This document shows positions 28,842 to 42,562 of a stretch of DNA of 47,797 nt, in pieces; positions within the stretch are counted from its first letter, which is position 1, and each line of letters begins with the position of its first letter. The notes below the pieces were generated by a model. It was not told the origin of the DNA. It saw nothing but the letters and a program-made list of their open reading frames with translations, and searched no databases. Source of the stretch: Chloroflexota bacterium (GTDB taxonomy: Bacteria > Chloroflexota > Dehalococcoidia > UBA2979); contig CANIRU010000006.1 in the NCBI GenBank assembly GCA_947470025.1, positions 1-47,797 on the forward strand. Reading direction: 5' to 3'. A program made the translations under genes and the position numbers.

Positions 28842-29411
28842 ATGCCCGGCTTGGTGATCTGGTTCACAGGACTGCCCGCCGCCGGGAAGAGCACCCTGGC
28901 TGCGCTCACACGGGCGCGCCTGAGCGACGCTGGTATCGACGTCGAGCTCCTGGACGGAGACGACACGCGCGGGCGGTTCTTCCCCGAGTTGTCGTTTGAC
29001 CCCGCGTCGCGCGACGAGCATGTGCGTCGCCTCTCCCTCCTGGCGGCGATGCTGGAGCGCCACGGCGTCGCGACCATCGTCGCTGCGATCGCACCAAACG
29101 AGGCGGCGCGGCAGGCGGCGCGTGCGCGCGCGTCCACGTTCGTGGAGGTGTTCGTCGATACCCCGGTCGAGGAGTGCATCCGCCGCGACCCGAAGGGCAT
29201 GTACGCGCGGGCGTTGCGCGGCGACCTCGCCGATTTCACCGGCGTCTCCGCACCGTTCGACCCGCCGTCCCACCCGGAACTGGACGTGCAGACGACCGGC
29301 CGCACACCCGACGAGTGCGTCGACCAGGTGCTCGACTACCTCGTGCGCGAGGGCCTCATCGATGCGCCGACGCTTCGCCCCGCCTGCCCGCGGGGGCGCG
29401 CCGCCTCGTAA
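28842..29411 (+). CDS. cysC: adenylylsulfate (APS) kinase
   Basis: Predicted 189-residue APS kinase, which phosphorylates adenosine 5'-phosphosulfate to PAPS. The P-loop GLPAAGKST is at the N-terminus. 'DGDDTRG', 'RDEHVRRLSLLAAML' and 'DPKGMYARALRGDLADFTG' are recognisable, while the usual 'ISPYR' strand is diverged to IAPNEAAR. The ATG at 28842 follows AGGAAG. It lies 68 nt after the interrupted sugar transferase. The pairing would fit sulfation of an exported glycan, but no sulfotransferase is in the window. The stop is inside a 14-bp tandem repeat. Confidence 0.88.
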   Translation: MPGLVIWFTGLPAAGKSTLAALTRARLSDAGIDVELLDGDDTRGRFFPELSFDPASRDEHVRRLSLLAAMLERHGVATIVAAIAPNEAARQAARARASTFVEVFVDTPVEECIRRDPKGMYARALRGDLADFTGVSAPFDPPSHPELDVQTTGRTPDECVDQVLDYLVREGLIDAPTLRPACPRGRAAS

Positions 29412-29441
29412 CCGCCGCCTCGTAACCGCCGCCTCGTAACC
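29400..29441 (+). repeat. 14-bp unit repeated three times over the cysC stop
   Basis: The unit GCCGCCTCGTAACC is present three times in perfect tandem (29400-29413, 29414-29427, 29428-29441). The first copy holds the TAA of cysC. Since 14 is not a multiple of 3, the extra copies place TAA in all three frames. Confidence 0.8.
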
Positions 29442-29537
29442 GCCGCGTAGTCACGCGGCTGGCAGACGCGCTCGCAGACGTGTGTGCCCCCGTCTCGCCC
29501 AGGCCCTCGTCCCGCGGTCCCAGCACCGCGCCGGGGC

Positions 29538-30338
29538 TTAGCCCATGAAGCTCACGATCGCCTGCGCGACCTCCTGCGGGTGGTCGAACTGGGGGTCGAT
29601 GCGCGCACCCTCGATGATCGTGGTGCGGTGATCCTTCACGCGGGCGGCGAACTCGTCCTTGAACTTCGTGTACCGGAAATGCTCGCCCCATAGGTTCATC
29701 GCGGGGACTGCGACCTTCGGCAGGTTTCCTGCGAGATCGTAGGCCGCGAATGCGCGCAGCAGCTGCGAGCGATCCTTCCCGGCCAGCACGGCGTCTACGT
29801 TCTTTCGATCGGCCCAGAGTTGCGAAGGGGCCATCGGGCAGTGCTCAGGATCCCGGCGCAGCCGCTCCTCCATCGACACCGGGAGCGGGACAGCCCCCTC
29901 CATCGAGGATGCGACCGCCGCGAGGCCGGAGTGGGCCGCCTCCTGCGCGGCTTTGTCGGGGTACCACGGGCAACTCATCATGATGATCCGCTCGGTGACC
30001 TCGGGGAATGCGACCGCCAGCTCCGTCGCGACGTAGCCAGCCCCGGCCTGCCCGAGGAAGGTGGCCTTCCCGAGTCCGAGCGACTGCACGAACTCCGCCA
30101 TCACACTCGCGTAGTCGTGGATGCTCGGCTCGAAGCTGAAGTGGTCCGACATCCCACACCCGGGGTAGTCGACGGCGATGGCACGGATGTTGTCCGGCAG
30201 CGCCTCGAGCAGTTCGAGGTACGAACTCGACGACCCGCCGTTGACGTGCATCAGCACGAGCGGGCGTCCACTGCCGGTCGCCCGGTAGTGGACATACCCC
30301 ACTGAGGTCTTCACGAGACCGCGTTCGATGTCCTTCAT
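29538..30338 (-). CDS. alpha/beta-hydrolase-fold protein without nucleophile (paralogue 1)
   Basis: Predicted 266-residue protein of the alpha/beta-hydrolase fold. The ATG at 30338 follows GGAGAG. The nucleophile elbow, normally G-x-S-x-G, reads GQAGAG with Ala98 at the nucleophile position. The catalytic His four residues before the terminal 'P-x-x-V' motif is also missing. It starts 33 nt after the solute-binding protein gene and is clearly paralogous to the protein at 32119-32931 (shared 'IERGLVxTSxGYxHYR', 'LELLEALPDN', 'PWYPDK'). It may be a binding protein or use another chemistry. A lone-gene annotation as hydrolase would be misleading. Confidence 0.85.
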   Translation of the reverse strand: MKDIERGLVKTSVGYVHYRATGSGRPLVLMHVNGGSSSSYLELLEALPDNIRAIAVDYPGCGMSDHFSFEPSIHDYASVMAEFVQSLGLGKATFLGQAGAGYVATELAVAFPEVTERIIMMSCPWYPDKAAQEAAHSGLAAVASSMEGAVPLPVSMEERLRRDPEHCPMAPSQLWADRKNVDAVLAGKDRSQLLRAFAAYDLAGNLPKVAVPAMNLWGEHFRYTKFKDEFAARVKDHRTTIIEGARIDPQFDHPQEVAQAIVSFMG

Positions 30339-30371
30339 TCGTCTCTCCATCCACGGTCTCGCAAGGACGCG

Positions 30372-32090
30372 CTAGGCCTTCAGCGTGACGAACTTCGTGC
30401 CCTCGATGATGTCGTTGTCGCGGAAGCCGGCGGGTCCGGGGAAGCCCTCGATGCCCTGCCACTTCGGATTCAAGAAAGCGACCTGCTTCGGGTTGAAGAA
30501 CGGCGCCATCGGAGACTTCGCGATCACGATCTCGGTGGCGTCCTTCACCAGCTTGGTGCGCTTGGTGGTGTCGTATTCGCCGACGGCCTGCTCGTTCAGC
30601 TTGTCGACCTCGGGATCCGAGAACTTGCCGTAGTTCTTCGAGCCGTCTGTGCTGAAGAACGTTGCGAACTCGTCCGCGCCGTCGGAGGTCGAACTCAGCG
30701 CGTAGGTGAGCAGATCGAACTGCCCGGCCGCCACCTTCGCGAGGAACGGGACGCTGTCGTGCGGTCCGTCGAAGGTGAGCTTGGTCTTCGGCCACACCTT
30801 GTTCCACTGCGCCCGGACGCGCTCGGCGTTCGCGGTGTTCGCGGGGGTGCTGTGCGGCAGCATCGTGACGCTCGGCAGGCCCTCCGGGAAGCCGGCGGCG
30901 GCCATCAACCGCTTCGCCTCGGTGATGTCCTGTTCCTTGGTGTCCGGGTTCCAGCCCGGCCGCTTCTTGATCTCAGCGGACGGGATGCCCTCCTGGACCC
31001 ACGTCGGCGAGATCGGGCCGGAGTAGTCCCAGATCGGGCCGAAGTACGCGTCGCCCATCGCCTTCACGTCGACGACGAGGCGGAACGCGGTGCGGACGCG
31101 CTCGTCGTTGAACGGGGCTTTCGCGCAGTTGAAGCGGCAGAAGTGCATGAAGCCGTACTCCCACTGCATCTGCTTCGCGTCCGGTCGCCGCTCGGCGACG
31201 GACTTCACCTCGCTGTAGGGCAGGGTGTTCATCGTCAGGACGTCGATCGTGTCGCCGATGAACGCCGCCACGATCGCGGGACGCGTGTCGATGTACGTGC
31301 GCTCGATCCCGGCGACCTTCGGCAAGCCCGGTTCCCAGTACTTCGTGTTCGCGACGTACGTGCCGCCGCCGTCCTTGTTGAGCTGCTTGCCGACCCACGG
31401 GCCGGTCCCCGTCAGCAGATTCGGATCGATGAAGTCGCTGTCCTTTGTCTCGGTCGCGAGGATCGGTGTCCGCATGTCGGTGAGCCCGTTGAGGATCGCG
31501 CTGTTGGGCTTCGACATCTTCAGGACGACCGTGGAGGCGTCGACCGCCTCCGCCTTCGTCATGCCACGGAAGTTGGTGCGGCGTGGGTAGAGCGCGATCT
31601 TCTGCGGGTCGAGCAGCCCGGCGTGGCGGTTGATGCTGTACGCCAGGTCCTCGGCGTTGAACTCACGACCGTTCGTCGGTGCCTTGTCGTGGAACAGCAC
31701 GCCTTTGCGGATCTTGAAGGCGATTTCGGTCGGGGACTTGACCTCCCACGACTCGACGAGGCTGGGATCGAGCTTCGAGGTCTGCTTGTTCGCCCGAATG
31801 GCGAGGTTGCCCCAGAGGCCCCAGTACTCGGCGCCTTGGCTAATCATCGTGAACGGGTTGAACGACTCGGCGAGCTTGTTGCCGACGATGCGCAGCGTGC
31901 CGGTGCGCTGCACGGTAGCACCGCTACCGCCGCTCGCTCCGGCGTTCTGCGCAGCCGGCGTCTCCTGCTTCGAGCTGCTGCTGCAGCCGACGAGCGCCGC
32001 GGCGCTCAGGCCCGCGCCGACGATCCCCGCGCCGCGGAGGACGCCTCGGCGGGACACGCGGTCATGCGTCCAGTACTGCATCTCGGTCAT
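30372..32090 (-). CDS. Tat-exported ABC solute-binding lipoprotein (family 5), second
   Basis: Predicted 572-residue extracytoplasmic SBP_bac_5 protein with a twin-arginine signal (VSRRGVLRG) and lipobox ending LVGC at Cys36, then a Ser/Gly/Ala-rich linker. The fold is complete, ending with 'FLNPKWQGIEGFPG'. GAGGAGG precedes the ATG by 7 nt. It is a paralogue of the protein at 3999-5759 and shares its 'AGLSAAAL' signal core. It sits in the middle of a three-gene unit bracketed by two alpha/beta-hydrolase-fold paralogues (28 and 33 nt spacing) with no permease or ATPase. It probably delivers a ligand to a transporter encoded elsewhere or to those two proteins. Confidence 0.9.
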   Translation of the reverse strand: MTEMQYWTHDRVSRRGVLRGAGIVGAGLSAAALVGCSSSSKQETPAAQNAGASGGSGATVQRTGTLRIVGNKLAESFNPFTMISQGAEYWGLWGNLAIRANKQTSKLDPSLVESWEVKSPTEIAFKIRKGVLFHDKAPTNGREFNAEDLAYSINRHAGLLDPQKIALYPRRTNFRGMTKAEAVDASTVVLKMSKPNSAILNGLTDMRTPILATETKDSDFIDPNLLTGTGPWVGKQLNKDGGGTYVANTKYWEPGLPKVAGIERTYIDTRPAIVAAFIGDTIDVLTMNTLPYSEVKSVAERRPDAKQMQWEYGFMHFCRFNCAKAPFNDERVRTAFRLVVDVKAMGDAYFGPIWDYSGPISPTWVQEGIPSAEIKKRPGWNPDTKEQDITEAKRLMAAAGFPEGLPSVTMLPHSTPANTANAERVRAQWNKVWPKTKLTFDGPHDSVPFLAKVAAGQFDLLTYALSSTSDGADEFATFFSTDGSKNYGKFSDPEVDKLNEQAVGEYDTTKRTKLVKDATEIVIAKSPMAPFFNPKQVAFLNPKWQGIEGFPGPAGFRDNDIIEGTKFVTLKA

Positions 32091-32118
32091 GATGTACCTC
32101 CTCGCCCCTCGGGCGGTG

Positions 32119-32931
32119 CTACTTGTCCAGGAACGAAACGATGGCGCTGGCGATGTCCGCCGGCTGCTCCGTGACGACGTCCGAACAGGCGTCCTTCACG
32201 ATGTATGGCGTGCCGTTCTTCGGGACACGGACGACGTCGTCCATGTACTTCGCGTAGCGGTAGTATTGTCCCATCAGACTCATCACCGGGTGCTGGACGC
32301 GTGCGAGGTTCGACGGCAGGTCGTAGTTCTCGAACGCCTGCACCAGCTGCATGCCGTTTCGCCCCGCGAGCGCTTTGTTGACGTTCCCGCGGTCGACGAG
32401 CGACTGCGTCTGCGGCACCGGGCAGCCCGGCGGGTCGAGGGTCTGCGGCGGGTAGATCTCGCCGAGCTTCACGGGGATCGGCCAGCCGGTCTCGTCCGTG
32501 GCTCGTCGCCGGTCCACGAGTTGGTGGTGCTTCACCTCGGTCTCCTTGTCGGGATACCAGGGCGTGTTCACGAGCATGATCCGGTCGACGAGGTCGGGGT
32601 ATGTGAGCGCGAGCTCGGTCGCGATGTACGCGCCACCGTAGGCGCCGAAGAAGGCCGCCTTGGTCACGCCGATCCCGGCCAGTGCCTCGGCGACGACTCG
32701 CGCATATCCGGCGATATCGATCTGGTCGACGTGATCCGAGAACCCGCAACTCGGCAGGTCGATCCCGATGCCACGGACGTTGTCGGGCAGTGCCTCGAGC
32801 AGCTCGAGGAACAACGTGGACGAGCCCGCGTTCTGGTGCATCATCAGCACGGCCCGGCCGGCGCCGGCGGAGCGGTAGTGGATGTAGCCGATGGATGTGC
32901 GTACCAGTCCGCGCTCGATCTCTTTGGCCAT
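32119..32931 (-). CDS. alpha/beta-hydrolase-fold protein without nucleophile (paralogue 2)
   Basis: Predicted 270-residue alpha/beta-hydrolase-fold protein, first gene of the unit. The elbow reads GAYGGA, with Tyr98 in place of the nucleophile Ser. The C-terminal segment VTEQPADIASAI lacks the expected His. Otherwise the length and core strands ('VLMMHQNAG', 'GIGIDLPSCGFSDH') fit the family. GAAGGA precedes the ATG by 5 nt. The sister protein at 29538-30338 has Ala at the same position. Both being intact but altered at the same residue suggests selected, non-hydrolytic use rather than decay. Confidence 0.85.
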   Translation of the reverse strand: MAKEIERGLVRTSIGYIHYRSAGAGRAVLMMHQNAGSSTLFLELLEALPDNVRGIGIDLPSCGFSDHVDQIDIAGYARVVAEALAGIGVTKAAFFGAYGGAYIATELALTYPDLVDRIMLVNTPWYPDKETEVKHHQLVDRRRATDETGWPIPVKLGEIYPPQTLDPPGCPVPQTQSLVDRGNVNKALAGRNGMQLVQAFENYDLPSNLARVQHPVMSLMGQYYRYAKYMDDVVRVPKNGTPYIVKDACSDVVTEQPADIASAIVSFLDK

Positions 32932-33096
32932 GACGTCCTTCTAAGCACTCGTCGCACCGCGCCCACCGATCAGGCAACTAGCGGGACGATTTTACCAGAC
33001 AGTTTCCTGCTCACACAATTAACGGCCGTTCCGCAGGGAGCGACGTGCCGGGCGTGCTAGCGTGCCGCTCGACTGGTGTTTGCGATGGAGGAACGC

Positions 33097-34026: not shown

Positions 34027-35196
34027 CTAGATCCACGCGGTCGCTGGATCGATGCCGAGGAAGAACTGCCCCGCCGTCTCGTAGTGGATCTGCTGCGCCT
34101 GGACCTGTGCCGTGGCCGCGTGCAGATCGCGGAACCGACGTTCGAACGGGCTGTCCTGGAAGACGGCGGTCGATCCCGCCGCCATGTGGATCATGTCACC
34201 GGCGCGAGCTGCTTCCTGGAGCGCGTGCGTGTTGGCGAGGCGCATGCGGATCCGCAGCGGGATGCTCAGCTCCCCGTTCGCCTGCGCGTACTCCCACGCC
34301 TCCTCGAGCGCGTCGTACATGTACGCGCGCGCGGCACCGAGGATCGCCTCGGCTCGCCCGACTTGCGATTGCACTACGGCGTTGTCGCGCAGCACCGTGC
34401 GCCCCGCCTTCGGCGTCTTGCCCTGCGCGATCTCCTCGAACGCGTCAAGCATCACGCGGACGATCCCGAGCGCCACCGATGCGAACCCCGCACCATGCCC
34501 CACGCGGACGGGGAAGCAGTTGAGCTTGCTCGGCGTCTGGGGTGGCTGTGCCACGTTGATCATGTGTTCTCGAGGGACGAAGACGTCCTGCAGCGCGTAG
34601 CTGTCGCTCCCGGTCCCGCGGAGCCCGCTCACGTGCCAGTGATCGCGCCACGTCACCGCCGGCTGCGGGAACGTGGCGATTGCCGTGCGAGCCGTCCCAT
34701 CCGACGCGAGTTCTGGTGAGCCCGCCGAGTCATGCAGGCGCACATCACCGAGCATCCAGGTCGCATGGTGCCCGCCACTTCCGAATCGCCATTCCCCGGT
34801 GACGCGGTAGCCGCCCGGCGCGGACACCGCGCGGCTCTCGGGTGCCGCGGTACCCGAGGCGGGGATCGCCCGTTGCGGCGCCAGGATCGTCTGGGCAACG
34901 TCCTGGTCGGCCCACGCCATCCGGAACACGAGCGGAGAGGCCTGAGCCACGCACCATGCGACGCTCGCGTCCGCCATCGCGAGCACCTCGATGGTACGCG
35001 CATAAGTGACGGGATCGGTCTCCGTTCCACCAAGAGGTTGTGGCGCGAGCAACTTGAACAGGCCGGCGTCGGTCAGCGCGTCGACGAGGTGCCGCGGGAT
35101 TCGCTGCTCACGCTCGATGCCATCGGCGGCGGCTGCGATGGCGGGAACCAGCGCCCGCGCGGCACGCACCGGCGAAGCTTCTGCGTCTGTGTCCAA
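34027..35196 (-). CDS. acyl-CoA-dehydrogenase-fold flavoprotein (HsaA/DszC-like)
   Basis: Predicted 389-residue acyl-CoA-dehydrogenase-superfamily protein. The sequence 'GLFKLLAPQPLGGTETDP', 'TGEWRFGSGG', 'SGLRGTGSDSYALQDVFVP' and a C-terminal four-helix bundle with 'QEAARAGDMIHMAAGSTA' match the type 2 C-terminal subgroup, which includes class D flavin monooxygenases such as HsaA and DszC. The proposed start is TTG at 35196 with GGGGGA 4 nt upstream. It gives a standard length, and the open frame beyond it is not protein-like. It is preceded by an LLM oxidoreductase on the same strand, so it is probably a monooxygenase paired with a flavin reductase located elsewhere. Confidence 0.85.
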   Translation of the reverse strand: MDTDAEASPVRAARALVPAIAAAADGIEREQRIPRHLVDALTDAGLFKLLAPQPLGGTETDPVTYARTIEVLAMADASVAWCVAQASPLVFRMAWADQDVAQTILAPQRAIPASGTAAPESRAVSAPGGYRVTGEWRFGSGGHHATWMLGDVRLHDSAGSPELASDGTARTAIATFPQPAVTWRDHWHVSGLRGTGSDSYALQDVFVPREHMINVAQPPQTPSKLNCFPVRVGHGAGFASVALGIVRVMLDAFEEIAQGKTPKAGRTVLRDNAVVQSQVGRAEAILGAARAYMYDALEEAWEYAQANGELSIPLRIRMRLANTHALQEAARAGDMIHMAAGSTAVFQDSPFERRFRDLHAATAQVQAQQIHYETAGQFFLGIDPATAWI

Positions 35197-35297
35197 GGCG
35201 TCCCCCGTTGGCCGACCGATATCGAGGCGACTATAGAGCGCGCTGGGCGACGGGCGAGCCGCTCTCCGCCTGACGTGCCGGTCGCGGACTCGCTGAG

Positions 35298-36265: not shown

Positions 36266-37072
36266 CTAGTAGACTACCGTCCGATCACGCTCGCTCGCGG
36301 CATCGATGGCCAGCGTCTCCCCGGTGATGCAATCGGCCTGCATTGAGCAGAGGAACAGCACAAGGTTCGCCGGGTCGGCCGACACGATGCGCCGTCCGAT
36401 CGGCGGGATGTTCCGCGCCTGCCGCGCCGCGGCCTCCTCCTCGGTGATCCCCTGTGCGTGCGCGATCTCCTTGATGCGCAATGCCTCGCGGTCGGAGTCG
36501 GAAGGGCCGCCCGGGTGCACGGCGTTCACGGTGATACCGTCCTTCGCGAGGTCGAGCGAGAAGGCCTTGGTCATGTTGATGATCGCGGCGTTCACCGCGC
36601 CGGCGCTGCCGCCTCCACCGATGCGCGAGGCGTTGCCGGCGATGTTGACGATGCGGCCCCAGTGGTTGCGCTGCATGATCGGGTGCACCGCGCGCATCGT
36701 GCGGAGGTAGCCGAACGTCTTCACGTCGAAGTGGCCGATCCAGTCCTCGTTCGACAGGTCGAGCGTGCCCCCGTACGGGAAACTCGCCGCCACGTTCACG
36801 AGGATGTCGATGCGGCCCATCTCGGCCTCCGCGGTCGAGACCATGCGGCGCACATCCTCGTCGCTCGACATGTCGGCGGAGATCGCCATGACCTTCACAC
36901 CGTGCGCGTCGCGGATCTGCTGCGCCGTCTCGTCGAGGAGGTTCTGACGCCGCGCGGTGATGCACACGTCGACGCCCTGACTCGCGAGCGCCATCGCACA
37001 GGCCCGGCCGATGCCGCGGCTCCCACCGGTGATGACGGCCTTCTTTCCAGCGATCCCATAGTCCACGCTCAT
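36266..37072 (-). CDS. SDR-fold protein lacking the YxxxK dyad
   Basis: Predicted 268-residue SDR. The cofactor motif TGGSRGIG is intact, but the NNAG motif reads NVAAS. At the catalytic YxxxK position, counted back from the conserved 'MTKAF', it has Ala157 and Asn161. Ser149 may remain. The rest ('GRIVNIAGNASR', 'VNAVHPGGPSDSDR') is well conserved. Other SDR subgroups lacking the dyad are known and may serve non-reductase roles. It is the first gene of the SDR-LLM-flavoprotein unit. The 422 bp to its right (37073-37494) hold no gene I can support apart from the 34-bp repeat at 37401. Confidence 0.85.
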   Translation of the reverse strand: MSVDYGIAGKKAVITGGSRGIGRACAMALASQGVDVCITARRQNLLDETAQQIRDAHGVKVMAISADMSSDEDVRRMVSTAEAEMGRIDILVNVAASFPYGGTLDLSNEDWIGHFDVKTFGYLRTMRAVHPIMQRNHWGRIVNIAGNASRIGGGGSAGAVNAAIINMTKAFSLDLAKDGITVNAVHPGGPSDSDREALRIKEIAHAQGITEEEAAARQARNIPPIGRRIVSADPANLVLFLCSMQADCITGETLAIDAASERDRTVVY

Positions 37073-37494: not shown

Positions 37495-38496
37495 TCAAGC
37501 CGTTCGCCGAGGGCGGTCCGGTGCCGAACCTACCCGAGCACCCGAACAAGCGCGCTTGGCAGCCAACATCCGCAGGTCAGCTTCGGCGAGGGCATCGGTC
37601 AGTCCCCTGGAAGGGTGCCTGACACAGACGCCGACTGAGGCGTCGACCGACACGCCATGGAGCACCGAGTTGATCCGGCTGAGTTCGGCACCTTCGTCAG
37701 CGGACCCGACGAGGATGAGTCCGAACTCATCACCTCCGAGCCGCGCCACCACGTCGGTTGAACGCGCGGCTACGCGCAGTGCTGCAGCGGCCCGCTTGAT
37801 GAGGCGGTCCCCTTCAGCGTGACCGGCGAAATCGTTTGTCCGCTTGAGGCCGTCGAGGTCAATGATCGCGATGGACGCGGGATCTCCGTAGCGTCGGCAG
37901 CGATCTTCTTCCCGTTCGAGCAGCGAGTCCCACCCTCGTCGGTTGAGCAATCCCGTGAGGGCGTCCGTCATCGACTCCACCTCCGCGCGCTCTCGCAGGC
38001 GGCGCTCGGCGTCGGCTGTCCGTTCCCGGATGAGGATGTTGCCGAGCAGTCCGGCGAGTAGCTCGACGAGTGGTTGGTCCTCGATGATCGACGCGGGCAT
38101 CGGTGTCTGGTTGATCGCGCAGAGCGTGCCGAACATCTCGCCACCAGCGAAGATCGGAACCCCGACATACGCCCCAATGGTGACCTGGCGACCAATCGGT
38201 GCCGCAGCGTACGCGGGGACTCGAGCGGAGTCGGGAGCGACCCTCGGCCCAAGCCCGATGACCATCTGCGAGCAGAAGGAATCTGACCAGCGGAACAGGT
38301 CGCCGGCCGCCACGCCGTAGTCTCGGTCGTCCGCCGTGAGCACGATCCAGTCATCCCCATTGGTCCGAGTCACCATCCAGAGTCCGAACCCCAGCCGCCC
38401 CCTCAAGTAGGCGAGGACTGCCCGCGCGGCGGTCTGGAAGTCGCTCGAGAGCAGCTGTTCGGTGGCGAAAGGCACAGTTCGGGTTGGTGCATCCAT
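37495..38496 (-). CDS. GAF-GGDEF diguanylate cyclase
   Basis: Predicted 333-residue cytoplasmic protein. Residues about 15-160 form a GAF sensor domain ('IGAYVGVPIFAGGEMFGTLCAINQ'). Residues about 175-320 form a GGDEF domain with 'DALTGLLNRRGWDSLL', an intact active site GGDEF at 254-258 and an inhibitory-site motif RSTD (245-248) five residues before it. It should make cyclic di-GMP with product feedback. There is no clear Shine-Dalgarno at the ATG, so the transcript may be leaderless. The C-terminal end is Arg-rich. It lies next to a membrane GGDEF-HD-GYP gene running the other way. Confidence 0.9.
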   Translation of the reverse strand: MDAPTRTVPFATEQLLSSDFQTAARAVLAYLRGRLGFGLWMVTRTNGDDWIVLTADDRDYGVAAGDLFRWSDSFCSQMVIGLGPRVAPDSARVPAYAAAPIGRQVTIGAYVGVPIFAGGEMFGTLCAINQTPMPASIIEDQPLVELLAGLLGNILIRERTADAERRLRERAEVESMTDALTGLLNRRGWDSLLEREEDRCRRYGDPASIAIIDLDGLKRTNDFAGHAEGDRLIKRAAAALRVAARSTDVVARLGGDEFGLILVGSADEGAELSRINSVLHGVSVDASVGVCVRHPSRGLTDALAEADLRMLAAKRACSGARVGSAPDRPRRTA

Positions 38497-38524
38497 GCGG
38501 ATAGCATCGGCTGGCTTCGGTGGG

Positions 38525-38636
38525 CTCTGAAGAGCACGGGCTTCAGGGTCGTCGGGCGCGAGCTAATGAGACGCCCGCCGAGTAGGACGATCGGACCACT
38601 GGTCGAGGAATTGGCGTGCGATCGCCTGATGTCCAG
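38525..38636. repeat. 112-bp direct repeat, copy R1
   Basis: About 96% identical to 41510-41620, with four substitutions and one single-base gap. On the minus strand it encodes the same last 22 or so residues (GHQAIARQFLDQW...RRASH) plus TAG as the end of the GAF gene at 41547, but no open frame continues upstream. It is therefore a gene-tail duplicate lying between the two GGDEF genes. Confidence 0.85.
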
Positions 38637-38753
38637 CTCCGTGCTTCGCGAGCGTGGCGGGCGCAACACTGGTGACTTCTCTACTCTTGGCCCGGGTTCG
38701 TATGCCGACAATTGGGAGGAATCAGTCCCGTTCAAGCCGCCAAGGGCATCCCA

Positions 38754-41294
38754 ATGTCGAACACCGAATTCAACATCGCTGCGGAACAGCCACCGGTGTC
38801 GAGAAATTGGTCGGCCCCGCTTTGGTCGTTCGGTGTGCTTGCGCTGGCGTGGTTCACGCTATCTGCCGTTCTGATCACGTTCCAACCGCTGCCTGAGGGC
38901 ATGCAGCACGCCTTCGCTTCGTTGTCCGGGATTCCGTCCATGCTCGCAGCCGCTATCGCCGCGGCATTCGCGGCAGCGCGGGCGCGCGGCAGCGTGCGGC
39001 GTGGCTGGTGGCTCATCGCAGTCGCCGCCCTGTGTTCCGCGATCGGTGACGGCATCTGGGCACTCTATGACTTGGCGCTGGGGATATCGGATCCGTTCCC
39101 ATCACCGGCAGATGCGTTCTACCTTTCGGTCATCCCGCTGTTTCTCGTCGGCATCTTCTTGCTCTCATCCGCGCGAAGCACGCTCGGTCAGTTCCGTACT
39201 GGCCTGGATGCAGCGGTGCTACTCGCTGCCGCCCTCGCTGTCGGATGGTCGGCGATCATCGATCCCACGTTCGCCGCGAGCGAAGCGAGTACGCCGCAAC
39301 GAGTGTTGAGTGCGGCTTATCCTGCGGCTGACATCGTGCTGTTGTGGGCGCTTGTCGTCGCCGTCAGAAGGCAGCGAGAACGGCGCGCGTTCATCGTGCT
39401 GGCCTCGCTTACCCTCGGGCTGACGGTGTTCGCGAGTGGCGACCTTGGGTTCGCCTATCTCTCGCTCCAGCAGACCTATGCAAGTGGCGCGATCGTAGAC
39501 CTGGGATGGTCGGCTGGCTTCTTGCTGATCGCCTGCGCTGCAGTCCTCCAAACGCGCTGGCAGTCTGATCTCGAGCCGGAACTGGGCGATCGTGTCGCGC
39601 CGATGTGGCGCAATGCGATACCGCTCGGCATGCTGCTCGCGCTCGTAGGATGGGTGTTGGTGAGCGACGCGGCTGGGGCACCACGACATGATCCCGTCGT
39701 CATCCTGCTGGTGGGAGCCGGTCTCCTGGGGGTCACGGTCAGGCAGATCGTGGTCCTCTCGGATAACGCCACGTTGAACGCGAGCCTCGACCGCCGGGTG
39801 CGCGACCGGACGCGCGAATTGCAGACCACGGTCGACCTCACGCGCGATCTCGCCTCCGCCCGCACGGTAGACGATGTGCTTGCCGCAGTGGGCGGGGCCC
39901 TGCGCCACGCGGTAGGCGGTGAGGTCACGCGTGTGCACCGGCTATCGGCGCAGGCCAGGCAGAAGGCTCGGTCGCTGCCAGAGGGAACGGGGCCGGTCCA
40001 CTCTGGACTCCAGTATGACCCAGAGACCGGTGTTCTCGTTGCTGGCGTCGGCCGTCCTGACCCACTCGGCTGGGTGGAGGTCAGTGGCGTATCGCGCCCG
40101 CCTCACCGGACGGCAGCCATTGAGGCGTTGGTCGTCGGCGCCGGGATCGCCATAGAGAATGCGACCCTCTTCGATCAGGCACGCCATGACGCGACCCACG
40201 ACCTTGTCACGGGATTGGTCAACCAGCGCCAGTTCTATGATGGCCTACGTGCGGCACTCGATGACCCGGCCCGCGGCGAGGCGGGGGTCTCCGTCGCCGT
40301 GCTCGACATCGACGACTTTCGACTGTTCAACGAGACGTATGGGCGTCTCCAGGGCGACAACGTGCTCAAATTGGTAGCGCGGGTGCTCCGTGGCCGGATG
40401 CCGCGCGGGGGGATCGCGGCGCGCTCCGGTGGCGATGAATTCGCACTGCTGCTCCCCTTCGGCCGCTCCGAGAGCGTCGCGTTCCTAAGCCGGCTCCAGG
40501 GGGCGATCGAACGCGTCCGCATCCGGCTCCCGCAGTCGACCGTGCCGGTGCGCCTCAGTTGTGGGTTGTCGTCGTTCCCAGAGGATGGTGCCACCGCGCA
40601 CGCCTTGCTGGTCGGCGCCGGTGACAATGTGCTTCACGCCAAACGGACCGGCGTCCCCACCGTCACCACGCCGAATCTCGGAGGCCAAACAGGCGGGGGC
40701 AACTATGCGGTACTGGTCGGCCTGATCACGGCGATCGATCGCCGAGACAACTACACGAGGGAGCATTGCGAGATGGTCTCCGACTACGCAGGGCGCCTGG
40801 CACACAAGCTCGGGCTCTCGAGCGAGACGCAACACACCGTCGCAATCGCCGGGATGCTGCATGACGTCGGGAAGATCGTCATTCCCGACCATATTCTGCG
40901 AAAGCCGAGCCGGCTGACGGAGGACGAGTACACGGTGATGAAGCAGCATGTCAATGTTGCCGCCGGACTGATCGTCGATGTGCCGAATCGTGACGAAGTG
41001 GTGGACGGCGTCGTCCACCACCACGAGCGATGGGATGGGACCGGCTATGCGAAGGGACTGCGGGGCGAGGCGATCCCGTATGTCGCCCGGATCGTCTCCG
41101 TTGTGGATCTCTACTCCGCCATGACGCTTGATCGCTCCTACCGGAAGGGCCTGTCCCCGCAGGCGGCCTTGGAGGAGCTGCGAAGAGCCGCAGGTACCCA
41201 GTTGGACCCCACGGTCACCGCAGCATTCATCGATATGGTCGAGGCTGAGTCGGCACTGGGGCAGGTGGGGGACATGCGACGGCACGTCGCCTGA
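38754..41294 (+). CDS. membrane GGDEF-HD-GYP protein (dual cyclic-di-GMP enzyme)
   Basis: Predicted 846-residue protein. The ATG at 38754 with AAGGGC upstream is preferred over TTG 38712. The first 310 residues contain about eight transmembrane helices, an MASE-like sensor, followed by a helix and a GAF-like region. A GGDEF domain has SGGDEF at residues 559-563 but no RxxD inhibitory site. The C-terminal HD-GYP phosphodiesterase has HD at 703-704 and 'HHHERWDGTGYAKGL', where the usual GYP is GYA. Both activities may be present. It is divergent from the GAF-GGDEF gene. Few CCTCGA words occur in it, unlike most of the window. Confidence 0.9.
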   Translation: MSNTEFNIAAEQPPVSRNWSAPLWSFGVLALAWFTLSAVLITFQPLPEGMQHAFASLSGIPSMLAAAIAAAFAAARARGSVRRGWWLIAVAALCSAIGDGIWALYDLALGISDPFPSPADAFYLSVIPLFLVGIFLLSSARSTLGQFRTGLDAAVLLAAALAVGWSAIIDPTFAASEASTPQRVLSAAYPAADIVLLWALVVAVRRQRERRAFIVLASLTLGLTVFASGDLGFAYLSLQQTYASGAIVDLGWSAGFLLIACAAVLQTRWQSDLEPELGDRVAPMWRNAIPLGMLLALVGWVLVSDAAGAPRHDPVVILLVGAGLLGVTVRQIVVLSDNATLNASLDRRVRDRTRELQTTVDLTRDLASARTVDDVLAAVGGALRHAVGGEVTRVHRLSAQARQKARSLPEGTGPVHSGLQYDPETGVLVAGVGRPDPLGWVEVSGVSRPPHRTAAIEALVVGAGIAIENATLFDQARHDATHDLVTGLVNQRQFYDGLRAALDDPARGEAGVSVAVLDIDDFRLFNETYGRLQGDNVLKLVARVLRGRMPRGGIAARSGGDEFALLLPFGRSESVAFLSRLQGAIERVRIRLPQSTVPVRLSCGLSSFPEDGATAHALLVGAGDNVLHAKRTGVPTVTTPNLGGQTGGGNYAVLVGLITAIDRRDNYTREHCEMVSDYAGRLAHKLGLSSETQHTVAIAGMLHDVGKIVIPDHILRKPSRLTEDEYTVMKQHVNVAAGLIVDVPNRDEVVDGVVHHHERWDGTGYAKGLRGEAIPYVARIVSVVDLYSAMTLDRSYRKGLSPQAALEELRRAAGTQLDPTVTAAFIDMVEAESALGQVGDMRRHVA

Positions 41295-41509
41295 GCCAAT
41301 CGCTCGCGGCAGGCGACGGCGCAGCCGCGTGGCCTTGATGCGCGGGTAGGGCGACATCCCCTCGGGACAGGGGGCCGAGCCGCGCGGAGCGCGAGCGGGG
41401 ATCTGGGGGCGACTGCTCGGGCAAGGCTAGCGGTTCGGCGGATAGAAGGCCTGCCGGCTCAGGCAGGAGTCTGGCTCAGACTTTCCAACGAGCGCCTCCA
41501 GAGGGTGGA

Positions 41510-41620
41510 CTCTGAGGAGCACGGGCTTCGGGTCGTCGGGCGCGAGCTAATGAGACGCCCGCCGAGTAGGAAGATCGGGCCACTGGTCGAGGAATTGGCG
41601 TGCGATCACCTGATGTCCAG
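41510..41620. repeat. 112-bp direct repeat, copy R2
   Basis: Overlaps the last 24 codons and stop of the GAF gene (minus strand) and runs 37 bp beyond it. It is nearly identical to 38525-38636. The pair flanks the membrane GGDEF-HD-GYP gene. The rest of 41295-41509 holds nothing I recognise. Confidence 0.85.
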
Positions 41621-42203
41621 ATTCAACTTTCGTGAGCGTGCTGAGCGCCATGCGGGCTGCAGCCACTTGCTGCCGAAGTTCTTCGTTTTCGTTCCGCAGC
41701 CCGTTGACCTCAAGTTCGGCCACCACTCGGCGCGCGAGAACGGTGAGCGCCCGGAGTTGTGCTGCCGTGAGGTCGCGATGCTCCCGGTCGATGACACAGA
41801 GCGTGCCAACGGCGTTGCCGGCGCTAGTAACGAGTGGAGCCCCTGCGTAGAACCGGATTCCGGGATCGCCGGTGACCAGAGGATTGGTTCGAAATCGCTC
41901 GTCCGCGGTCGCATCCGGTACGACGAGCGGCTCGGAGGTGTCCAGGATTGCGTACGCGCAGAATGCGACATCCCGTGACAGTTCGGGGGCATCCAGTCCG
42001 ACGCGGGACTTGAACCACTGCCGCTTCTCGTCCACGAGGCTGACGAGGGCAATCGGCGTCCCGCAAATCTCCGCGGCCAGCGCCGTGATGTCGTCGTAGG
42101 GCTGCTCCGGCAGCGTGTCGAGAATGCGGAACGCCTGTAGTTCCAGCAGGCGCTCGACTTCGTTGCTGGGCAGCGGTGCCGGCTTTGCGCCAGATTCGGT
42201 CAC
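41547..42203 (-). CDS. stand-alone GAF-domain sensor protein
   Basis: Predicted 218-residue protein. The GTG at 42203 is chosen because GAAGGA lies 8 nt before it. The longer open frame upstream lacks protein character. Residues about 10-165 form a GAF domain of the type found before histidine kinases and GGDEF domains ('ERLLELQAFRILDTLPEQPYDDI', 'GIRFYAGAPLVTSAGNAVGTLCVID'), then a short coiled coil ('LRNENEELRQQVAAARMAL') and a basic tail. There is no output domain, so it may oligomerise with or regulate the neighbouring enzymes. The 359 bp to its right (42204-42562) contain no gene I can support. Confidence 0.85.
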   Translation of the reverse strand: MTESGAKPAPLPSNEVERLLELQAFRILDTLPEQPYDDITALAAEICGTPIALVSLVDEKRQWFKSRVGLDAPELSRDVAFCAYAILDTSEPLVVPDATADERFRTNPLVTGDPGIRFYAGAPLVTSAGNAVGTLCVIDREHRDLTAAQLRALTVLARRVVAELEVNGLRNENEELRQQVAAARMALSTLTKVESGHQVIARQFLDQWPDLPTRRASH

Positions 42204-42562
42204 GGCTTCGATCCTTCGCGGAAACACCAAGTGCTCCCTCAATGATCGGGGAGGCGGCATCTGGCCGCCACTCTCGTCGCTCTGCACGCGCATGCCCGGT
42301 GAGTCAGGCGCAGGTGAGAGTCCGTGGCGAGGACAACGACAGAGCGGGGTCCCCGGGTTCTGCTTGTCGGGGCCGAGAGGGGCGGAGGCTTCGGCTAAGC
42401 AGTCATCTACCGGGTCACGAACATGGGAGAGTGTGTTCAACGGCGACGAAATCGAGACGATGCCGTTCATGCTGAGGATCGAGTTCGGCCCGCGCCCGTG
42501 AGTGCGCCTACACTGAACCTCCCGCGCCGTGCGTTGGGTCTTTTCGATGTATGGGGGGCAGT

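Follow-up and report, generated by a model that had tools for sequence, protein, structure and literature searches.

NDRG proteins (Pfam Ndr, PF03096) have an alpha/beta-hydrolase fold and lack the catalytic triad. KAI2/D14, GID1 and RsbQ are small-molecule receptors on the same fold, and of these KAI2/D14 and RsbQ keep the triad intact. The cofactor-free dioxygenases and hydroxynitrile lyases of this fold need the catalytic His, as part of a His-Asp dyad. Triad-less proteins are usually annotated 'alpha/beta hydrolase', which hides them. This study concerns a three-gene locus in a stretch of 47,797 nucleotides (nt) on contig CANIRU010000006.1 from a member of the Dehalococcoidia (UBA2979), here referred to as the window, whose positions are used for the coordinates. 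Two alpha/beta-hydrolase-fold proteins without a triad, A and B, are encoded on either side of a gene for a solute-binding protein (SBP). Triad-less hydrolase-fold proteins are already known (NDRG); for the family to which A and B belong, the open-access literature searched gave no description, either of the family itself, of its link to TctC or DctP receptors, or of non-hydrolytic members.

On the minus strand, the genes follow in the order B (32119..32931, 270 aa), SBP (30372..32090, 572 aa) and A (29538..30350, 270 aa), and all three open reading frames (ORFs) are intact. A and B align end to end with 43% identity over 267 residues (E 1e-82), in agreement with an earlier note on this DNA, which described them as full-length paralogs. 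The alpha/beta-hydrolase fold was confirmed by matches to Pfam Abhydrolase_1 and Abhydrolase_6, an AlphaFold2 predicted template modeling score (pTM) of 0.79 and Foldseek TM-scores of about 0.6-0.73. The earlier note had also reported Ala (GQAGAG, A) and Tyr (GAYGGA, B) at the nucleophile position and no catalytic His in either protein, and these replacements were upheld by PDB alignments, structure models and the family alignment. In the PDB alignments, Tyr98 of B faces the Ser of AidH-type hydrolases, and the Ala of A (Ala102 in the 270-aa ORF, Ala98 if counted from the second Met) faces the Asp nucleophile of haloalkane dehalogenases. In AlphaFold2 models of the single proteins, built from a 12-sequence alignment, the residue lies in both cases at the strand-helix turn of the elbow, i.e., between strand 96-101 and helix 104-114 in A and between strand 92-97 and helix 100-110 in B; the core was predicted well, and the lid at a predicted local distance difference test score (pLDDT) below 50. 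After the last strand, in the column of the catalytic His, A has Ile and B has Ser; after strand 7, the acid is replaced by Phe in A (GEHF) and by Tyr in B (GQYY). On sequence grounds, neither protein can hydrolyze a substrate by the standard mechanism.

The family set comprises 26 sequences from 25 loci, namely A, B and 24 further full-length relatives, one of them from Dehalococcoidia (L041, genome G074) and the rest from Burkholderiales and Roseomonas-order genomes. When the nucleophile position was aligned across these homologs, as the earlier note had proposed, Ala was found in 24 of the 26, with Tyr in B and Ser in L043. The catalytic His and acid are absent from all 26, and the His column holds Phe, Cys or Leu outside A and B. 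As the loss of the triad is common to distant relatives, it predates the A/B duplication, and on the alignment evidence it is old and maintained, not a sign of decay. In the proteobacterial members, the family signature consists of a GEAxGA elbow, HxNQQSSA, SGFPxTRT, SWMDRIN, GRxRWQ, GEHFxY and ARFC. The most conserved region is the lid core (148-205), for which the mean majority-residue frequency in the other 24 members is 0.80, with 48% of columns at 90% or higher, compared with 0.40 in 13 related hydrolases, where it is among the least conserved regions; outside the lid, conservation differs little between the family and these hydrolases. Invariant residues include R10, H35, D61, D69, D150, D167, H170, D181, R182, N184, R192, Q196, E223, F225 and R250. 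Such a pattern would fit a maintained ligand pocket. At 77 positions that are near-invariant in the other members, A keeps 49 and B keeps 47 residues; B has lost R250, E223, F225, W179 and H170, all of which A keeps along with the DRxN and GEHF motifs, and A has changed D150 and others.

In a maximum-likelihood tree, in which distant Dehalococcoidia relatives (L017-L021, L029-L036) served only as outgroup, all 26 sequences form one clade (support 100/99). A and B are sisters (100/99) and therefore arose by duplication within this lineage, and B stands on a long branch (1.68). The proteobacterial members form one group nested inside the Chloroflexota members, and the patchy distribution suggests horizontal transfer. 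A and B are the only two copies in their own genome. Elsewhere in the order (43 genomes) the family was not found, nor, apart from G074, in the rest of a 201-genome sample of the phylum. Scanning genome contigs gave ten clear homologs (L041-L050), L041 on a G074 contig and the others on Burkholderiales-type and Roseomonas contigs, with a single copy in each of these proteobacterial genomes; nine matches each came from the orders around L047 (399 genomes) and L049 (299 genomes). A plasmid collection contained distant matches only (27-38% identity), and no relatives were found in viral contigs scanned with the family alignment. Among the outgroup relatives, L018, L031 and L032 keep the full triad and others carry GxHTGA at the elbow. 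This elbow, with His in the place of the nucleophile, marks a second alpha/beta-hydrolase group of Dehalococcoidia (L017/G037, L029/G097, L030/G077 and others), most of which are without the catalytic His after the last strand. In G061, an SBP_bac_5 lipoprotein and a protein of the FAD_binding_2 type are encoded in the neighborhood of a catalytic-looking cousin (L039:7424-13679; GNSIGA, with Asp and His present); the pairing of hydrolase and receptor may therefore be older than the loss of the triad.

An SBP gene is the immediate neighbor in 16 of the 25 loci, and three unrelated receptor families are represented: SBP_bac_5 in the window, DctP in L041 (followed by DctQ, DctM and a FAD_binding_2 protein), and TctC in L043, L045-L050, L115, L117-L120, L122 and L123, with TctC on both sides in L119 and L047. 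In some loci the two genes share a strand, with the hydrolase gene up- or downstream of the receptor gene, and in others they are divergent or convergent; the adjoining TctC proteins fall into at least seven lineages, so the link probably arose several times. Five more loci adjoin another transporter gene, i.e., EamA (L121), MFS (L124), a formate/nitrite transporter (L125, L126) or a convergent ATP-binding cassette (ABC) ATPase (L127). Every proteobacterial genome searched (G394-G401, G531-G748, G986, G1009) has at least 84 TctC matches, which amounts to very large TctC (Bug) expansions, and the large TctC numbers in beta-proteobacteria are unexplained (PMC5812351). With a background taken as the flank density of ~0.12 TctC per gene, for which the gene count was estimated at one per kb, TctC adjacency in the Burkholderiales set was 11 of 14 against ~0.23 expected (naive P about 2e-5; 0.002 once sister loci are collapsed). 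The Dehalococcoidia member genomes gave no TctC match, so this background does not affect their receptor adjacency. Enzyme neighbors of the family are a 4HBT thioesterase, a zinc alcohol dehydrogenase and FAD_binding_2 proteins; in related loci, the gene after that of the hydrolase encodes a small protein with the 4HBT thioesterase fold (L117:9978-10526, L118:10397-10843, L120:832-1329), and in L116:6407-9021 genes for a [2Fe-2S] subunit and a large molybdenum-hydroxylase-type subunit (the latter by eye) come after the hydrolase gene in place of a transporter. No regulator, kinase, signaling-domain gene or other partner recurs beside the family in the neighborhoods examined.

The SBP of the window matches the SBP_bac_5 profile at 165.6 bits (cut-off 32.4) and carries, by eye, a Tat-type (twin-arginine translocation) motif, SRRGVL, and a lipobox, LVGC, which supports its description in the earlier note as a Tat-exported lipoprotein. 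The spacing of 28-33 nt given there applies to the 28 nt between B and the SBP gene, whereas the gap between the SBP gene and A is 33 nt only if A starts at the second Met and 21 nt as called. The absence of a permease also held for the B-SBP-A cluster, where neither a permease nor an ATPase adjoins; this is not peculiar, since the SBP duplicates one that has permeases, and permease genes lie near the hydrolase in L041 and, as tctB and tctA, close by in L118. The paralog in question (G000:C3:16911-18620, 59% identity) adjoins two BPD_transp_1 permease genes, which the window SBP may share, and has acyl-CoA dehydrogenase- and enoyl-CoA hydratase-like genes nearby (by eye). What did not stand is a recurring three-gene set: the hydrolase-SBP-hydrolase trio was found in this genome only, and elsewhere one hydrolase occurs with one or two SBPs (SBP-hydrolase or SBP-hydrolase-SBP). 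By eye, A and B have no signal sequence and the SBP has one; A and B should thus remain cytosolic, without contact with the exported SBP, and the shared factor would be the solute. Direct contact between A or B and the SBP was dropped as an explanation on the same grounds. Mis-binning of the contig was dropped as well, as the GC content of the trio (0.65-0.66) is close to that of the window (0.68) and a different contig of the bin carries the SBP paralog.

With moderate confidence, A and B are read as cytosolic, non-hydrolytic pocket proteins, either enzymes of another chemistry or binders, that would serve an imported solute. This solute is probably an organic acid: carboxylates are the typical ligands of TctC and DctP receptors (PMC5812351), and the conserved Arg, Gln and Asn residues would suit an acid. 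A and B are lineage-specific duplicates in a small uncharacterised, probably cytosolic family. The whole triad was replaced early in this family, with Ala for Ser, Phe for the acid and Phe, Cys or Leu for His, and a polar, lidded pocket would have been kept under strong constraint. The proteins would act inside the cell on the solute brought by the adjoining uptake system, by a non-hydrolytic step (e.g., of the isomerase, lyase, decarboxylase or dehydratase type) or by binding it. Delivery of the solute in the window would fall to the orphan SBP, whose paralog has permeases; the family function would remain with A, and B, which has diverged further, may be a partner subunit or have altered specificity. 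It is conceivable, though doubtful, that the family forms a transferable post-uptake module, in which one conserved pocket has been paired independently with SBP_bac_5 (ABC), DctP (tripartite ATP-independent periplasmic, TRAP), TctC (tripartite tricarboxylate transporter, TTT) and other carriers, all importing the same kind of solute, to be transformed or sensed without hydrolysis.

Several observations weigh against this reading. The lid, which would bind the ligand, is the poorly modeled part of both structures (pLDDT below 50), so the pocket is deduced from sequence conservation, and the loss of 28 (A) and 30 (B) of the 77 near-invariant positions means that their function may differ from that of the family. 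L042, L044, L116 and L128 have no transporter as immediate neighbor (in L042, TctC is one gene off), and in L127 the transporter neighbor is only a convergent ABC ATPase. The abundance of TctC in the proteobacterial genomes makes the adjacency there weaker evidence than it seems, and the gene count behind its P value is rough. Finally, the adjoining SBPs belong to many lineages, and a pocket for a single solute would require convergent ligand preference among them.

The earlier note had suggested either binding or sensing, or a reaction other than hydrolysis, and both are consistent with the conserved triad loss and the transporter adjacency. Catalysis of another kind is ranked somewhat above pure binding, because the neighbors are metabolic enzymes and no signaling gene recurs. 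A tentative alternative is that the fold serves as a non-enzymatic receptor in the cytosol and signals the arrival of the imported solute to a partner encoded elsewhere; the loss of the whole triad with pocket and lid conserved would agree with this, as would the linkage to receptors, many of them orphan, and a review of TTT systems has raised a signaling role for over-abundant TctC proteins (PMC5812351). Nevertheless, the genes beside the family encode metabolic enzymes without a recurrent regulator, kinase or signaling domain, and the GGDEF and GAF genes of the window (37-42 kb) lie several genes off and are not tied to the family elsewhere. Rather improbable is a transporter link that merely reflects background, i.e., a family traveling with accessory catabolic islands in TctC-rich genomes: the local TctC density and the number of TctC matches per genome speak for it, but the observed adjacency exceeds that background and the Dehalococcoidia members, in genomes without a TctC match, adjoin other receptor families.

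Still less probable is that A and B are unconventional hydrolases using another residue, such as a Ser, Asp, Glu or His of the lid or oxyanion loop. Many polar residues are conserved (S40/S41, D150, D167, H170, D181, E223) and L043 carries Ser at the elbow; however, L043 too has neither the His nor the acid, the loop that follows beta-3 and holds S40/S41 often contains Ser in related hydrolases that are catalytic, and no alternative triad is placed as in known members. That A and B are decaying pseudogenes left by a duplication and beside the SBP gene by chance is very unlikely. The long branch of B with its 30 lost positions and the absence of the family from the rest of the order would agree with decay, but both ORFs are intact with a strong codon-position GC bias, the triad loss is older than the duplication, and A keeps DRxN, GEHF and R250. 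The earlier note had named an arrangement both unique to this genome and decaying as the outcome that would count against it; the trio was indeed found only here, whereas the family is conserved, intact and not decaying.

Beyond B, a divergent intergenic region (32932..33096) is the presumed promoter region, in which a promoter scan found no sigma-70-type consensus. It leads to an F420-type LLM-class oxidoreductase gene (TIGR03619; 33097..34017, plus strand), which the ORF caller starts at 33076, with 33097 as an internal ATG. The following genes, all on the minus strand, encode an acyl-CoA-dehydrogenase-fold flavin monooxygenase-like protein (34027..35235; HsaA-like below cut-off, best PDB match Rv3094c) and, by profile match, a second LLM-class oxidoreductase (TIGR03619; 35298..36218) and an SDR-family oxidoreductase (36266..37072). 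These genes look like an accessory catabolic cluster and, for the trio, are context only. A GGDEF/GAF protein and a GAF protein are encoded at 37495-42470, a few genes upstream of the trio. On the other side, a short direct repeat, CGCCTCGTAACCGC, occurs in ~3 copies at 29405-29445, just past the end of an APS-kinase-like gene.

With a clean family signature and a receptor link, the ligand could be traced through the adjoining SBPs, and the family could help to assign solutes to some orphan TctC receptors. In fold, elbow geometry and lid insertion, the family resembles classical alpha/beta-hydrolases (MCP hydrolase, AidH, PcaD and dehalogenase type; Abhydrolase_1, Abhydrolase_6), but it is without nucleophile, acid and His, and its lid is conserved where theirs varies; the Asp nucleophile that marks haloalkane dehalogenases is replaced by Ala in A and Tyr in B. 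It is like NDRG in the loss of the triad, and each of the 12 members scanned matches the Ndr profile, though weakly (E 1e-3 or better): B (26.3 bits) is over the cut-off of 23.3 bits, A (23.2) is 0.1 bit under it, and Abhydrolase_1 scores better. In contrast to NDRG, the family is bacterial and transport-linked and has a conserved lid of its own. KAI2/D14, GID1 and RsbQ provide a precedent for a receptor role of this fold, and KAI2-type proteins are among the PDB sequence matches of A; unlike KAI2/D14 and RsbQ, however, A, B and their family have no triad, and no signaling partner recurs in their neighborhoods. As for the cofactor-free dioxygenases and hydroxynitrile lyases, both columns of their His-Asp dyad are replaced in the family. 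The closest likeness in gene arrangement is to orphan TctC/Bug receptors that adjoin cytosolic enzymes such as arylmalonate decarboxylase (PMC5812351), where the receptor gene likewise has as its neighbor a gene for a cytosolic protein that is taken to act on the acid brought in, with the difference that the cytosolic partner described here has a triad-less hydrolase fold and is paired with DctP and SBP_bac_5 receptors as well.

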